The notes beneath the pieces are model-generated. The model searched no databases. It saw only the letters and a list, made by a program, of their open reading frames with translations, and had not been told where the DNA came from. Below, in pieces: positions 1,958-64,000 of a stretch of 64,000 nucleotides of DNA. This stretch comes from Rhizobium sp. TH2 (GTDB lineage Bacteria > Pseudomonadota > Alphaproteobacteria > Rhizobiales > Rhizobiaceae): NCBI RefSeq assembly GCF_024707525.1, contig NZ_CP062231.1, positions 1,426,001 through 1,490,000 on the forward strand, read 5' to 3'. Made by a program: the position numbers and the translations under genes. Each line of letters opens with the position of its first letter. Within the stretch, counting starts at the first letter, position 1.

Positions 1958-1969
1958 TGCTTTCGACTC

Positions 1970-2239
1970 AAAGCGTGTCGCAGCTATTTGGAGCCATTCT
2001 GTTGGCTCAAACGGAGTCGGATGGTCGACCGGCCGGCGCGCGTCGTAGCCAAATCTACGGCCAAGCCGGCCGGTCGATCAGGCGGCCCGTTTCAGCCAAC
2101 CCGAAGGGCCGGGCATCTTTCCGCCAGTCCCTGCGGCGCCGGTCTCGGCCGTACCTAAGGGTACGACGCTCGCCCGCCGCCTTGGTCCTGACGAAAACCT
2201 GCTCCGGCAGAATGGCTCCAAATAACTGCGACACGCTTT
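1970..2239 (+). repeat. Palindromic structured element, family 1, copy 1
   Basis: The outer inverted repeat is AAAGCGTGTCGCAG (1970-1983) against CTGCGACACGCTTT (2226-2239), and it continues inward to CATTCTG/CAGAATG. Inside are a second hairpin with arms TCGACCGGCCGGC and GCCGGCCGGTCGA, and a third around GTACC/GGGTAC. Blocks shared with copies at 3297-3571 and 63916-64000 include CTGTTGGC, GGAGTCG, GTCGTAGCC, GGGCATCTTTCCGCCAG and CTGACGAAAACCTGCTCCGG. The element starts 12 bp after the stop codon of the upstream regulator. No coding potential was recognised. It may act as a terminator or structured 3' RNA. Confidence 0.85.
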
Positions 2240-2340
2240 AACAACTCATAGGGAGATTTAATCTCCGCCTTGAGTACATTTTCCTGCCGCCCGTTCGACT
2301 ATGGCCGTGTTGAAACCGACATCGCCCACGGGAGGCCATC

Positions 2341-2585
2341 ATGCTTGCTCCAAATTCCATCATGTCGCTGAACCAGGGTGCCGATCTTGCCCGGTGGAAC
2401 ATGCAGCGGCTCTATGCGTCCTCGCCGACCGAAACCCAATAGGCGGCGGAAGAGGCCACGCCTATCGAAGCAATAGCGGCGTCGTCGCGCATTCCCCGCG
2501 TGTCGCTCGGTTTTGCGTCGTTCGTGGGGCGCCTGCTTGGCCTGTGGCGCCCGGGTAACGCCATGACCGGGACTACCGCCCGCTG
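2341..2585 (+). pseudogene. Small ORF interrupted by an in-frame TAG
   Basis: An ATG at 2341, preceded by GGGAGG, opens a 33-codon frame beginning MLAPNSIMSLNQGADLARWN and ending at TAG 2440-2442. The same frame then stays open for 47 more codons (ending RLLGLWRPGNAMTGTTAR) to TGA at 2583-2585. Codon third positions remain GC-rich on both sides of the TAG, as in the real genes here. The simplest reading is a small gene of about 80 codons broken by one nonsense change; a genuine 33-residue protein or a sequencing error are alternatives. The family was not recognised. The next gene begins 97 bp downstream on the same strand. Confidence 0.4.
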
Positions 2586-2681
2586 AACGAATCCAAGCCG
2601 AAATCACACGGCCGTTTAACCGGGTGTTAACCATAATTCCTTACTTCTCATTAGCACTTAGGGGAAGCATGGGGATTTGGA

Positions 2682-3299
2682 ATGTCGATTTCGCGTCGTG
2701 GGCTATTGCTGGGTTCATTGGCTCTTCTCGCCGGCTGTTCAACCAACGGCGCCAATCACAGGGCGAATTACGCGGCAAAGCCCGATGAAGCCCATCCGAT
2801 GCCGGCCATGCCGCTCGACAAGATCAAGCCGGAACTGCGCCGCACTGAAGTCGCCTACGAGACCGGCCAGAAGCCCGGCACGATCGTCGTCGATACGCCG
2901 GCGCGGCGCCTCTATTACATTCTCGGTGATGGTATGGCGATGCGCTACGGAATTGGCGTCGGCCGCGAGGGCCTCGCACTCTCGGGCAACGCCCATATCG
3001 GCCGCAAGGCTGAATGGCCGAGTTGGACGCCGACTGTCAACATGATCCGCCGCGATCCGGCCAAGAACCGCAAATATGCGGGCGGTGTGCCGGGCGGCCT
3101 CGCTAATCCGCTCGGCGCCCGGGCGCTCTATCTCTATCGCGGTGGTGGCGATACGCATTTCCGCATCCACGGCACCAACCAGCCGAGCTCGATCGGCTAC
3201 GCCATGTCGTCGGGCTGCATTCGCATGCTCAATCACGATGTCATCGATCTCTACAGCCGCGTCGACGTCGGCACCAAGGTCTTCGTGATCCAGGCTTAG
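2682..3299 (+). CDS. L,D-transpeptidase lipoprotein (YkuD domain)
   Basis: This 205-residue protein starts with a lipoprotein signal (LLLGSLALLAGC, lipidated Cys19). The YkuD fold follows from about residue 60 to 203. The catalytic signature is complete: His163 in RIHGTN and Cys179 in SSGCIRM. Enzymes of this ErfK/YbiS/YcfS/YnhG class make 3-3 cross-links in peptidoglycan or attach outer-membrane proteins to it, in the periplasm; rhizobia carry many paralogues. The stop codon TAG (3297-3299) is the first base-paired part of the palindromic element that follows. Which of the two reactions this member performs cannot be read from sequence. Confidence 0.92.
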   Translation: MSISRRGLLLGSLALLAGCSTNGANHRANYAAKPDEAHPMPAMPLDKIKPELRRTEVAYETGQKPGTIVVDTPARRLYYILGDGMAMRYGIGVGREGLALSGNAHIGRKAEWPSWTPTVNMIRRDPAKNRKYAGGVPGGLANPLGARALYLYRGGGDTHFRIHGTNQPSSIGYAMSSGCIRMLNHDVIDLYSRVDVGTKVFVIQA

Positions 3300-3571
3300 A
3301 TCGTTTCATTGTTAAATGGAAGCATTCTGCCGGAGCAGGTTTTCGTCAGGGCAGAGGCGATTGGCGAAGGGCATACCCCGATGTACGTCCGAGCCGATCG
3401 CCTCTGATCCTGGCGGAAAGATGCCCGGCCCCTTCGGGGTTGGCCGATACGGGCCGCCTATTCGTTCGGTCGCCTTGGCCGTAGAACTGGGCTACGACAC
3501 GCGCCGACCGAACGAATATCCGACTCCGTCTCGGCCAACAGAATGATTCCATTTAACAATGAAGCGATCTA
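3297..3571 (-). repeat. Palindromic structured element, family 1, copy 2
   Basis: This copy lies in the opposite orientation to copy 1. Its outer arms include TTCATTGTTAAATGGAA on the left and TTCCATTTAACAATGAA on the right. The palindrome extends through TAGATCG to CGATCTA, so that both convergent stop codons, TAG at 3297-3299 and the complement of CTA at 3569-3571, are in the arms. The second hairpin has arms ATTCGTTCGGTCG and CGACCGAACGAAT, different in sequence from copy 1 but again complementary. The third has CAGAGGCGATTGGC against GCCGATCGCCTCTG, with one G-U type pair. The element fills the whole gap between the two genes and probably ends transcription from both sides. Confidence 0.88.
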
Positions 3572-12208: not shown

Positions 12209-12235
12209 GTGAATGGCTTCAAACAACCTGCTTTT

Positions 12236-12299
12236 AGCGAATGGCGAGTAGTTTTGGCCTGTGACCTCCAGTCGGCCAGCAAACTATTCGCTCTTCGCT
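12236..12299. terminator. Imperfect hairpin between convergent genes
   Basis: AGCGAATGGCGAGTAGTTT on the left pairs, with a few mismatches, with AAACTATTCGCTCTTCGCT on the right, and TGGCC pairs with GGCCA near the loop. It lies 28 bp after the Sel1 mini-protein stop and 6 bp before the stop of the opposing gene, so it probably serves both as a terminator. The ATTCGCT motifs resemble small dispersed repeats common in rhizobial genomes. Confidence 0.5.
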
Positions 12300-12304
12300 A
12301 TTCG

Positions 12305-12898
12305 CTAGTCTTCCAATCCTTTTCCATCGAAAATCTTCGGCATGTATTTCTCGATCCTGGCTTCCCGGGTCTTGGATTGCTTGGCCGATGAAAAGTGGAG
12401 AAGATATCCCCGCTGTCGCCCCGGCGTCAGCGCCTGGAAGGCGGTCTTCAATTCCGGCATTGCATCAAGTTTGGCCTGGAATTCCTCGACGACCGCAAAT
12501 TCCGACGCCTTCTTGAAATCCACTTTGAAGCCGGCCTTCTCCACATCCACGGCCTGGTGGATGTAAGCCTTCAGGATGTTGTCCATCCGCTTGATTTCAT
12601 CGAGACCGGTGAACCGAATCTGGCGGGCCGCCTGCACATTCTCCGTCTGCTGCACCAGGATCTTTTCCGGATCCGTCATCAACGCGCCCTTGAAGAGCAG
12701 GAGCGCGCAATATTCCTTGAAGCCGTGGATCAGGACGACATTCTTCTTGTCGATGGAATAGCAGGGCCAGCCCCATTTGAAATCCTCGGTCAGCTGGCAG
12801 TCGAGAATGATCTTTCTCAGCGCCTCGATTTCCGCGCGCCATTCCGTGGTCCGGGCCAGGAATGCATCGACCTTGGGATTTGTCTCGCTCTTTGCCAC
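12305..12898 (-). CDS. YdeI/OmdA-like protein with DUF1801 domain
   Basis: This 197-residue protein has an N-terminal DUF1801-type domain (VDAFLARTTEWRAEIEALRK, FKWGWPCYS, KNVVLIHGFKEYCALLLFKG) and a C-terminal YdeI/OmdA segment (LTPGRQRGYLLHFSSAKQSK, TREARIEKYMPKIFDGKG). Family members are small cytoplasmic proteins; YdeI homologues have been linked to peptide resistance, but no biochemical activity is firmly established. The start is GTG at 12898, with GGGAGG seven bases upstream. It follows the aminotransferase gene by 29 bp on the same strand and may be co-transcribed with it. Confidence 0.85.
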   Translation of the reverse strand: MAKSETNPKVDAFLARTTEWRAEIEALRKIILDCQLTEDFKWGWPCYSIDKKNVVLIHGFKEYCALLLFKGALMTDPEKILVQQTENVQAARQIRFTGLDEIKRMDNILKAYIHQAVDVEKAGFKVDFKKASEFAVVEEFQAKLDAMPELKTAFQALTPGRQRGYLLHFSSAKQSKTREARIEKYMPKIFDGKGLED

Positions 12899-62179: not shown

Positions 62180-62379
62180 ACCCCTCACCAACTTCGGCCA
62201 AGGGCTCGCAAGCTCGCCCGGCCTGCGTATCCTCTCCCACAAGGGGAGAGGTAAAGGCGCCACAAGCTCGGCCTTGATTTGAGGCGAGGCAGCGCCACAG
62301 ATTTACCTCTCCCCTTGTGGGAGAGGATAGCAAGTCCGCGTGAGCCGCAGCGAACGCATGGACGCGCTTGGTGAGGGGT
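62180..62379. repeat. Palindromic element, family 2, copy C
   Basis: Outer arms ACCCCTCACCAA (62180-62191) and TTGGTGAGGGGT (62368-62379) match copies A and B. Inner arms are CTCTCCCACAAGGGGAGAG and CTCTCCCCTTGTGGGAGAG. Where copy B has G-C in CCCGCAAG/CTTGCGGG, this copy has A-T (CCCACAAG/CTTGTGGG), so the pairing is kept by change on both sides. It lies in the gap between DUF1028 and the aldehyde dehydrogenase gene. Confidence 0.87.
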
Positions 62380-62427
62380 AAGCCACATTCTGATATGGGC
62401 TCGTGTGATGACCGACGGAGACAACCA

Positions 62428-63918
62428 ATGAACGACATGACCAAGACCGGCTGGGAAGCCGAAGCTACCAAGATCCGCTTCCGTGATCGCGCATTCATCG
62501 ATGGCAAATACGTCCCCGCCGCGTCGGGCAAGACCTTTGACAGCATTAATCCCGCCACTGGCGCGGTGCTGGCACAGATCGCCTCCTGCGATGCCGCCGA
62601 TATCGATCTCGCTGTCCGCGCCGCCCGCCGCGCTTTCGAAGACGGCCGATGGTCGGGCAAGACGCCGGGCGAGCGCAAGGAAATCCTGCTCAGGCTCGCC
62701 AATCTAATCCGCGAGAACCTCACGGAGCTTGCCCTGCTCGAAAGCCTCGACATGGGCAAACTGGTGCAGGACGCGGCGGCCATAGACGTGCCCGGCGCCG
62801 CTGGCGTTTTCCAGTGGTACGCCGAGGCGATCGACAAGGTCTATGATGAGATTGCGCCTACCGGTTCCGGCAATCTCGCGATGATCCGCCGCGAAGCTCT
62901 TGGTGTTATTGCCGCCGTTGTGCCGTGGAATTTTCCGCTCGACATGGCGGCATGGAAATGCGCGCCCGCGCTCGCCATGGGCAACTCGGTGATCCTGAAG
63001 CCGGCCGAACAATCGCCGCTTTCGGCGCTGCGTCTCGCGGAACTCGCGAGCCAAGCCGGCATTCCGGATGGCGTCTTCAATGTCGTGCCCGGCTATGGCG
63101 AAACCGCTGGCAAGGCGCTCGGTCTGCACCCGGATATCGACTGCGTCGCTTTCACCGGCTCGACCGAGGTGGGAAAACTCTTCCTCACCTATTCCGGCCA
63201 ATCCAATATGAAGCAGATCTGGCTCGAATGCGGCGGAAAGAGCCCGAACCTGATCTTCGCCGATTGCGACGATCTCGACGCGGCAGCCGACATGGCGGCT
63301 TTCGGCATCTTCTTCAACCAGGGCGAGGTCTGCTCGGCCAATTCGAGGCTTCTGGTGCAGAAGCCGATCGCCGACGTTTTCATCGAGAAGATGAAGGCGC
63401 GGGCAGGGCGCTATGTACCTGGCAATCCCCTCGATCCGGCATCCACCATGGGCGCAATCGTCGATGAGAAACAGACCGCCCGCATTGCCTCGTTCCTCGA
63501 TTATGGCCGCGCCAATGCCCGGCTGGTCGCGGGCGGCAATCGCGTGACCGTGGATGGCAAGGGTTGCTTTATCGAGCCATCGATTTTCGCTGATGTGAGG
63601 CCTGATGATCGATTGTCGAAGGAGGAGATTTTTGGACCGGTGCTCGCGATCAGCACCTTCGAGACCGAGGACGAGGCGGTCCATATCGCCAACGACTCGA
63701 TCTACGGATTGGCGGCGTCGGTCTGGACCTCGAACCTGTCGCGTGCCCATCGCATGATCGATCGGCTGAAGGTTGGAACGGTATCGGTCAATACGGTCGA
63801 CGCCTTGTCGCCGATGACCCCGTTCGGCGGCTTCAAGCAATCCGGCATCGGCCGTGACCTGTCGCTTCACGCCTTCGACAAGTTCTCCGGCCTCAAGACA
63901 GCATGGATCAAATATTAG
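62428..63918 (+). CDS. NAD(P)-dependent aldehyde dehydrogenase (PuuC-like)
   Basis: This 496-residue aldehyde dehydrogenase has catalytic Cys302 in FFNQGEVCSANSRLLVQ, Glu267 in WLECGGKSPNLIF and the nucleotide-binding VAFTGSTEVGKLFL. It is closest in pattern to the gamma-glutamyl-aminobutyraldehyde dehydrogenase (PuuC)/AldA-like group that oxidises amine-derived aldehydes. The ATG at 62428 follows GGAG, and an earlier in-frame start would run into the palindromic element. The stop TAG begins family 1 copy 3. Confidence 0.92.
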   Translation: MNDMTKTGWEAEATKIRFRDRAFIDGKYVPAASGKTFDSINPATGAVLAQIASCDAADIDLAVRAARRAFEDGRWSGKTPGERKEILLRLANLIRENLTELALLESLDMGKLVQDAAAIDVPGAAGVFQWYAEAIDKVYDEIAPTGSGNLAMIRREALGVIAAVVPWNFPLDMAAWKCAPALAMGNSVILKPAEQSPLSALRLAELASQAGIPDGVFNVVPGYGETAGKALGLHPDIDCVAFTGSTEVGKLFLTYSGQSNMKQIWLECGGKSPNLIFADCDDLDAAADMAAFGIFFNQGEVCSANSRLLVQKPIADVFIEKMKARAGRYVPGNPLDPASTMGAIVDEKQTARIASFLDYGRANARLVAGGNRVTVDGKGCFIEPSIFADVRPDDRLSKEEIFGPVLAISTFETEDEAVHIANDSIYGLAASVWTSNLSRAHRMIDRLKVGTVSVNTVDALSPMTPFGGFKQSGIGRDLSLHAFDKFSGLKTAWIKY

Positions 63919-64000
63919 AGCCTCTTGCATTGAAATGGAACCGGTTCTGTTGGCTCAAGCGGAGTCGCATGTTTGACCGGTGGGCCACGCGTCGTAGCCA
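63916..64000 (+). repeat. Palindromic structured element, family 1, copy 3 (cut by window end)
   Basis: Starting at the TAG stop of the aldehyde dehydrogenase gene, the sequence shows TCTGTTGGCTCAAGCGGAGT and CGCGTCGTAGCCA, matching copy 1 (TCTGTTGGCTCAAACGGAGT; CGCGTCGTAGCCA) in the same orientation. The outer arm (GAGCCTCTTGCATTGAAATG) differs from copies 1 and 2. The rest lies beyond the window. As in the other copies, the TCTGTTGGC end abuts the 3' end of a gene. Confidence 0.8.

Follow-up and report, generated by a model that had tools for sequence, protein, structure and literature searches.

A three-armed, TA-flanked mobile element of Rhizobium sp. TH2 whose stems covary, apparently at the DNA level

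A 64-kb stretch of DNA (the window) from the 5.88-Mb contig NZ_CP062231.1 of Rhizobium sp. TH2, whose genome comprises 6.44 Mb, contains three copies of a palindromic element. Copy 1 (1969–2240, forward strand) spans 272 nt including both tip dinucleotides, which have decayed to CA...TA. Copy 2 (3297–3571, reverse strand; TAGATC...GATCTA, 275 nt including both TAs) is flanked by convergent genes. Its terminal TAG at 3297–3299 (forward strand) is the stop codon of an L,D-transpeptidase (YkuD) gene at 2682–3299, and the convergent gene, for an EamA transporter, stops at the TAG of its other end (3569–3571, reverse strand). Copy 3 (63916–64000, forward strand) starts with a TAG (63916–63918) that ends an aldehyde dehydrogenase open reading frame (ORF) at 62368–63918. 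An earlier reading made from the letters of the window (the sequence-only reading) had listed this copy as partial; it is present, but it is a complete copy that runs past the end of the window and is found whole in L022 at 1472–1747 (loci examined are cited by L numbers, genomes by G numbers).

The element has the consensus TA-GAGC...GCTC-TA and measures ~272 bp plus the duplicated TA (~274 bp). An outer stem, P1, of ~31 pairs encloses a long hairpin of ~100 nt (arm I), a tiny central hairpin and a second arm of ~100 nt (arm II). In copy 1 the 5′ arm of P1, variable in sequence, lies at 1970–2000 and pairs with the 3′ arm at 2209–2239. Between them stand arm I (2001–2100) with a conserved GGAGTCG block and GTCGTAGCC tip, the central hairpin (2101–2107) and arm II (2108–2208), in which conserved GGGCATCTTTCCGCCAG faces CTGACGAAAACCTGCTCCGG; all of these read on the forward strand. 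On the reverse strand, copy 2 comprises the 5′ arm of P1 (3540–3571), arm I (3439–3539), the central hairpin (3430–3438), arm II (3329–3429) and the 3′ arm of P1 (3297–3328). Mostly invariant are the GAGC/GCTC tips, the joints TTCTGTTGGC/CCGGCAGAA, the GGAGTCG and GTCGTAGCC blocks, and GGGCATCTTTCCGCCAG facing CTGACGAAAACCTG; the stems between these blocks are variable. The arms and blocks quoted for copies 1 and 2 in the sequence-only reading are present, and both copies fold very stably: −171.3 kcal/mol for copy 1 (z −12.3) and −159.8 kcal/mol for copy 2 (z −12.6), with 0 of 200 shuffles equal in either case. The longest ORF mostly inside a window copy has 95 amino acids (1954–2241).

A long form, in which a 68-nt two-hairpin module (TCCCGCAGATTTGC...) replaces the central hairpin, occurs in at least seven places in the TH2 genome (G000:C1 469746, 1201454, 1330916, 2237859, 2257266 and 3420408; L181). 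The inverted repeat of the module has six exact matches in this genome, all six inside element copies. One Rhizobium site holds the long form in one genome and the short form in another (L121/L127). A CcrM-type GANTC site (GAGTC; 2014–2018 in copy 1) is kept in 41 of 42 full copies from TH2 and in 66 of 83 from elsewhere.

The element is indeed, as had been supposed, a repeated rhizobial palindrome. A DNA search returned at least 59 matching pieces in the TH2 genome (40 of 96 candidates scored), and a conserved 25-base pattern matched 44 times there with up to three mismatches, its reversed control not once. With up to two mismatches, 17 of 297 genomes from the family, TH2 included, had the pattern, as did 7 of 109 genera; the four other genomes of the host genus in this survey and, TH2 apart, all 384 genomes sampled across the class lacked it. 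Carriers named among the loci examined belong to Rhizobium, Sinorhizobium/Ensifer, Neorhizobium, Agrobacterium and near kin. Matches occurred in 165 plasmid records, or in 211 when a Sinorhizobium copy was the query, and the phage records searched gave no element match. The loci examined contained 211 copies, 160 of them full, from which we obtained 125 distinct copies by removing duplicates with the same flank and sequence, at a length ceiling of 480 nt. A subfamily, B, is present in the sister genomes G003, G004 and G008; it is ~70% identical, equal in length and has the same three-arm fold. Its loci are L251–L260 and L274 on, with tips mostly TAGAGCGTGTYTCA.

Two sets of other matches were set aside. 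Three stray matches to outer arms in the TH2 genome (L248:2001, L249:2083, L250:3974), considered as an autonomous relative, are decayed copies: one has a single outer arm followed by GGCTCTA, a near-total internal deletion, and of the other two one is truncated and one lacks arm I. Five non-rhizobial exact 18-mer matches among 80 loci listed (L040, L047, L054, L067, L104) showed no element match and were taken as chance.

The claim that the stems covary between copies holds well beyond the two copies on which it was made. We aligned 32 copies spanning both subfamilies: two window copies, 28 of 33 representatives (L026, L001, L059, L079 and L041 were omitted) and two more copies of subfamily B. 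Both-sided changes occur in 53 of 113 pairs, against a shuffled mean of 27.8 (standard deviation (sd) 2.5; 0 of 500 shuffles as high), and 95.0% of cells are paired, against 85.2% after shuffling. The covariation score is 0.277, compared with 0.099 for shuffled alignments and at most 0.060 when the partner is slid by 1–3 columns. In a larger set (104 of the 125 copies are 255–295 bp long, 102 of them distinct), 43 of 113 pairs show two or more Watson-Crick types in which both letters differ, every such type being present in no fewer than two copies. Among 75 nearest-neighbour pairs of copies we counted 79 both-sided Watson-Crick changes, where chance would give ~2.8, and 348 pair changes of other kinds. 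An insertion or deletion, too, is compensated in most copies. Of the 121 that could be scored, 114 have arms that match at the two letters beside TTCTG/CAGAA and seven have arms that do not; four of the 125 were unscorable. Shuffle tests are inflated by the relatedness of the copies; the sliding control is clear all the same, as are the near-neighbour changes, and covariation is far above chance.

The sequence-only reading had itself raised the possibility that the arms differ because two fixed element types recombine. Arms switching as blocks among a few such types would fit the wholesale difference of some outer arms, copy 1 against copy 2 for example. However, many graded, intermediate arm types exist, single-pair compensations separate close copies, and in P1, which pairs the two ends of the element in 96.9% of cells of the 32-copy alignment, both-sided changes occur in 22 of 32 pairs; the ~70% identical subfamily keeps the same architecture. 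We regard recombination of fixed types as extremely improbable.

The element moves. At all three of the sites where filled and empty alleles were read in Rhizobium plasmids, a single TA has become TA[GAGC...GCTC]TA. The clean empty allele of site 1 is L231 only; L230, a second candidate, was rejected since eight flanking bases are also gone; a later deletion across a GGC repeat seems to have produced it. Site 2 lies on metQ plasmids (empty alleles L233 and L234), and site 3 is filled in R. etli Mim1 and empty in CFN 42, at 99.4% identity. A pyrimidine (C or T) precedes the left TA in 118 of 125 full copies, and a purine (G or A) follows the right one in 116 of 124. The element thus inserts at YTAR with duplication of TA, the typical outcome of IS630/Tc1/mariner-type transposases. 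The site of copy 2 is empty in five of eight other genomes of the genus searched (G001, G003, G004, G005, G008); in these the two convergent genes are the same and their aligned blocks are separated by 7–51 nt. The pair L055/L118, considered as a flipped orthologous pair, proved to be two insertions ~20 bp apart.

Stop codons are a recurrent landing place. When an open frame of at least 300 nt reaches an element edge, its stop is precisely the terminal TAG in 44 of 66 cases on the 5′ side and 38 of 51 on the 3′ side, with 53 and 63 edges, respectively, lacking such a frame. Landing in a stop codon is tolerated because TA plus the first G of the element restores TAG. We then rejoined the flanks of 106 of the 125 copies (41 from TH2, 65 from other genomes; copies with less than 700 bp of flank were omitted) and assigned positions with a crude gene caller, which may err in other genomes. 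Among the 41 TH2 copies, 16 are placed in a stop codon, 20 are intergenic and 5 are within a gene; elsewhere the corresponding numbers are 19, 24 and 22. The 95 YTAR sites of the window, those within copies included, divide into 11 in stop codons, 45 intergenic and 39 inside genes. Purging from genes shows in the TH2 genome and, elsewhere, not clearly.

Covariation is usually taken as the strongest sequence evidence for functional RNA, and the sequence-only reading had ascribed it to selection on RNA or cruciform structure. A structured RNA, be it a small RNA, an untranslated-region element or an RNase III substrate with a fold selected on the transcript, would accord with the very stable fold, the strong covariation and the conserved joints and tips. 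The two levels leave different traces. In RNA, pairing survives a change from G-C to G-U but is lost when G-C becomes A-C. For double-stranded DNA the two variants are one and the same event, seen on opposite arms. Among the 102 copies, with two invariant A-C columns added manually, the columns with a Watson-Crick majority give a ratio of G-U to A-C of 149:135 by cells, 55:56 by distinct types and 34:26 by singletons. As a control we used 6S RNA from the same bacterial family in the same pipeline (n=29; 30 loci were fetched of 58 genomes with a match, and one, cut by a contig end, was omitted). Here the ratios are 73:12, 27:5 and 11:2. By types, the element differs from 6S RNA with p=0.00046 for the 102 copies and p=0.00011 for the 32-copy set (types 23:32; Fisher test). 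Orientation between tandem genes is likewise unbiased, with 12:8 in TH2 and 18:16 elsewhere.

Because G-U and A-C changes are symmetric, unlike in 6S RNA, and orientation is random, we reject the RNA reading; the observed stem covariation appears to reflect the DNA level and not selection on a folded RNA. Presence that varies between strains also speaks against a structured RNA. The Rfam search that had been proposed as a check gave no match at gathering score in the window; 11 weak matches all fell below the cut-off. Of the two structures originally named, the DNA alternative was therefore rightly included and the RNA one found no support. Several counts weigh on the other side. The comparison of singletons alone is not significant (p=0.11), fixed wobble columns lean slightly to G-U (four against two A-C), cells lean to G-U among TH2 copies (70:27; other copies 63:92) and cells of the 32-copy set do so as well (80:46), and a weak RNA component may exist. 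Transcribed REP-like repeats have been reported in S. meliloti (PMC2873474). Taken as the explanation of the fold, a structured RNA nevertheless seems very unlikely. The family offers a natural test case for false structured-RNA calls in bacterial intergenic repeats, with the counting of G-U against A-C variants as a cheap discriminator. By word search, the main text of two reviews of covariation pitfalls contains neither "palindrom" nor "inverted repeat" (PMC8250186, PMC11234323).

To find a possible source of the transposase, 14 loci with PF13358 (IS630-type) in four genomes were scanned for TA-flanked inverted ends. Three matched (L245, L265, L269) by a crude criterion of 12 of 16 positions, a number that a rough estimate, not a computed one, puts near chance. 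Only L245 among the 14 has GAGC tips. It is an IS630 insertion sequence (IS) of ~1.05 kb in the TH2 genome (L245 979–2025; G000:C1 near 4,382,933) with two open frames (1061–1450 and 1537–2010), and its ends, C|TA-GAGCAC...GTGCTC-TA|G, correspond to a CTAG target. Relatives are present in 578 plasmid records; among the 15 of these that were listed, several have exactly these ends. TAGAGC starts all six ends found in the ISs L245, L346 and L347; in L346 and L347 an annotated neighbouring gene terminates at the terminal TAG of the IS itself. When 62 distinct element tails following TAGAGC were compared with IS ends (L349 omitted), their likeness was 7.6, against 5.7 for shuffled tails (sd 0.15, 200 shuffles); the tails are mutually related, so that this amounts to one resemblance, not 62.

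Mobilization of the element by an IS630-family transposase is likely because an IS630 element of the same genome has identical TA-GAGC tips and a CTAG target, and the L245-type IS is a candidate partner. Two points count against this assignment: the putative link is drawn from similarity of tips and short tails, and two of the five ISs examined (L345, L348) yielded no TA-flanked ends by the criteria used.

How arms are matched can be followed at site 2, where 13 of 14 filled records among the 60 entries listed were read. In L239 and L307 arm II is imperfect, with GGATCAGA facing TTTGCC. In ten records the left arm reads GGGCAAA, perfect to TTTGCCC and one base shorter; in L306 it is the right arm that has changed, to TTTGATC (TTTGATCC), perfect to its GGATCAAA and one base longer. 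In L241, a 41-nt tip of arm II is exactly reverse-complemented relative to five other records. Compared with the eleven other records read, the entire element moreover has the opposite orientation in L241 and L242 (CP050518, NZ_CP048283), at the same TA site, through either an in-place flip or a separate insertion. A comparable change is seen within the TH2 genome. The arm II bulge GGATCAG/CTGCCC of copy 2 is "perfected" to GGGCAG in the sister copy L182. Four differences set L182 apart from copy 2, L179 and L180, and by two of them the same arm is perfected; DNA folds of nearly the same stretch give −18.2 and −27.1. The GGGC form is found on three different backgrounds.

Passages of two papers on template switching, also called quasipalindrome correction, describe the same features, namely arm homogenization, multi-base and compensatory changes and spacer inversion, in yeast genes, ribosomal RNA and microRNA hairpins; here they would concern a repeated mobile DNA family (PMC8604942, PMC8794818). 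With moderate confidence, we propose that the rewriting of arms at site 2, indel included, and the tip inversion are footprints of template switching during replication, and that such events are the main source of arm matching. The multi-base, indel-bearing changes that matched the arms of site 2, in one direction or the other, offer covariation a mutational route. Some observations do not favour this proposal. The direction of the changes at site 2 was deduced from other copies, without a tree. The both-sided share in situ is not distinguishable from that between non-orthologous copies (p=0.55), and both-sided changes cluster only weakly (11 adjacent, where the null gives 6.0 with an sd of 2.2 and a maximum of 14). 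Inverted arm tips occur in 0 of the 102 copies of the general set, a count on which recurrent arm-tip inversion was rejected. Moreover, 16 of 18 distinct stem variants that arose in situ are one-sided.

The last count also favours selection at the DNA level, in which only copies with matched arms multiply, since pairing is required by the machinery of transposition or by an intermediate that is single-stranded or cruciform. If so, resident copies would be expected to gain one-sided changes as they do. Between nearest neighbours, stems diverge less than unpaired columns (0.031 vs 0.072), and outer arms at different sites vary in sequence, not in pairing, both as such selection would have it. 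Against it, arms have also come to match in copies that did not move, by changes in both directions at a single shared site, and the element tails retain some likeness to IS630 ends. IS630-type transposases normally read the sequence of the ends, not their shape. We consider DNA-level selection as the principal cause a real but clearly lesser possibility. Related to it is a scheme in which transposition mainly recognizes end shape, consisting of a paired stem whose fixed tip adjoins TA, while template switching keeps the drifting repeats together; terminal repeats could then drift widely provided that both change together. This is unlikely because the tails have kept that likeness to IS630 ends.

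Tips, joints and some hairpin tips are fixed, the stems are variable yet complementary, and the variation is strand-symmetric. These properties are probably best explained by a non-autonomous, TA-duplicating element of the type of miniature inverted-repeat transposable elements (MITEs), with arms kept complementary mainly by template switching. An IS630-family transposase would move the element into YTAR and duplicate TA. Its imperfect inverted repeats would be copy-edited during DNA replication, one arm serving as template for the other, which would produce compensatory changes of several bases, indels among them. A further contribution may come from transposition, if it requires a DNA hairpin and new copies are selected for having one; both processes may act. 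With many copies at known sites, the element lends itself to measuring template switching in evolution.

TA duplication at three of three sites, a length of ~272 bp, 44 matches in one genome and the lack of a transposase gene inside are features of TA-duplicating MITEs, and the element is an unusual member of that class in that its terminal repeats vary widely but stay paired. Correia/NEMIS of Neisseria, RUP of S. pneumoniae and ERIC are TA-flanked MITEs that passages of a review present as stem loops of ~100–200 bp (PMC2229807). According to the same passages they are, like our element, short and non-coding, with terminal inverted repeats, TA termini, target duplication and strong folding; Correia also has short and long forms, and for RUP an IS630 partner has been proposed. 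Unlike these, the element is ~274 bp long, has three arms and an outer repeat that is widely variable yet paired. CIR of Caulobacter and Brucella, as outlined there, is also alphaproteobacterial, with TA termini, two long linked arms and the CcrM motif GANTC; however, it is described without pairing of its ends, which P1 provides here, and its GANTC lies in the terminal loop rather than in the stem of arm I (PMC2229807). Bru-RS of Brucella, compared by description from part of its report, is palindromic and present in tens of copies, but measures 103–105 bp (PMC2267715). The IS630 ISs of Rhizobiales (L245, L346, L347) have TA-GAGC tips and TA at both ends in common with the element and differ in their length of ~1.05 kb, their transposase, their short inverted repeats and the absence of arms.

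RIME, the A/B/C palindromes and Sm repeats, by the descriptions contained in passages of two papers, are likewise rhizobial, intergenic and present in dozens per genome (PMC2573895, PMC2245857). The pckA–chvI loci of three genomes showed no palindrome or element match, which is weak as a test for RIME. RIME is ~108 bp long with two palindromes. The element may overlap or equal RIME or Sm repeats. REP and REPIN sequences are not known to cause target duplication, in contrast to the TA duplication seen here. The REP units of these RAYT-mobilized systems measure 20–40 bp in the passage that gives their size, compared with 272 bp for the element (PMC3733652). A search of the literature on rhizobial palindromic and MITE elements, mostly open-access, returned no 274-bp three-armed TA element, and the element may already have a name. 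It behaves as an IS630-type TA MITE and is not placed in RIME, CIR, REP or an RNA family.

Another short, TA-flanked near-palindrome of 73 bp, TTAGCGAATGGCGAG...TTCGCTATTCGCTAG, is located at 12235–12307 of the window.

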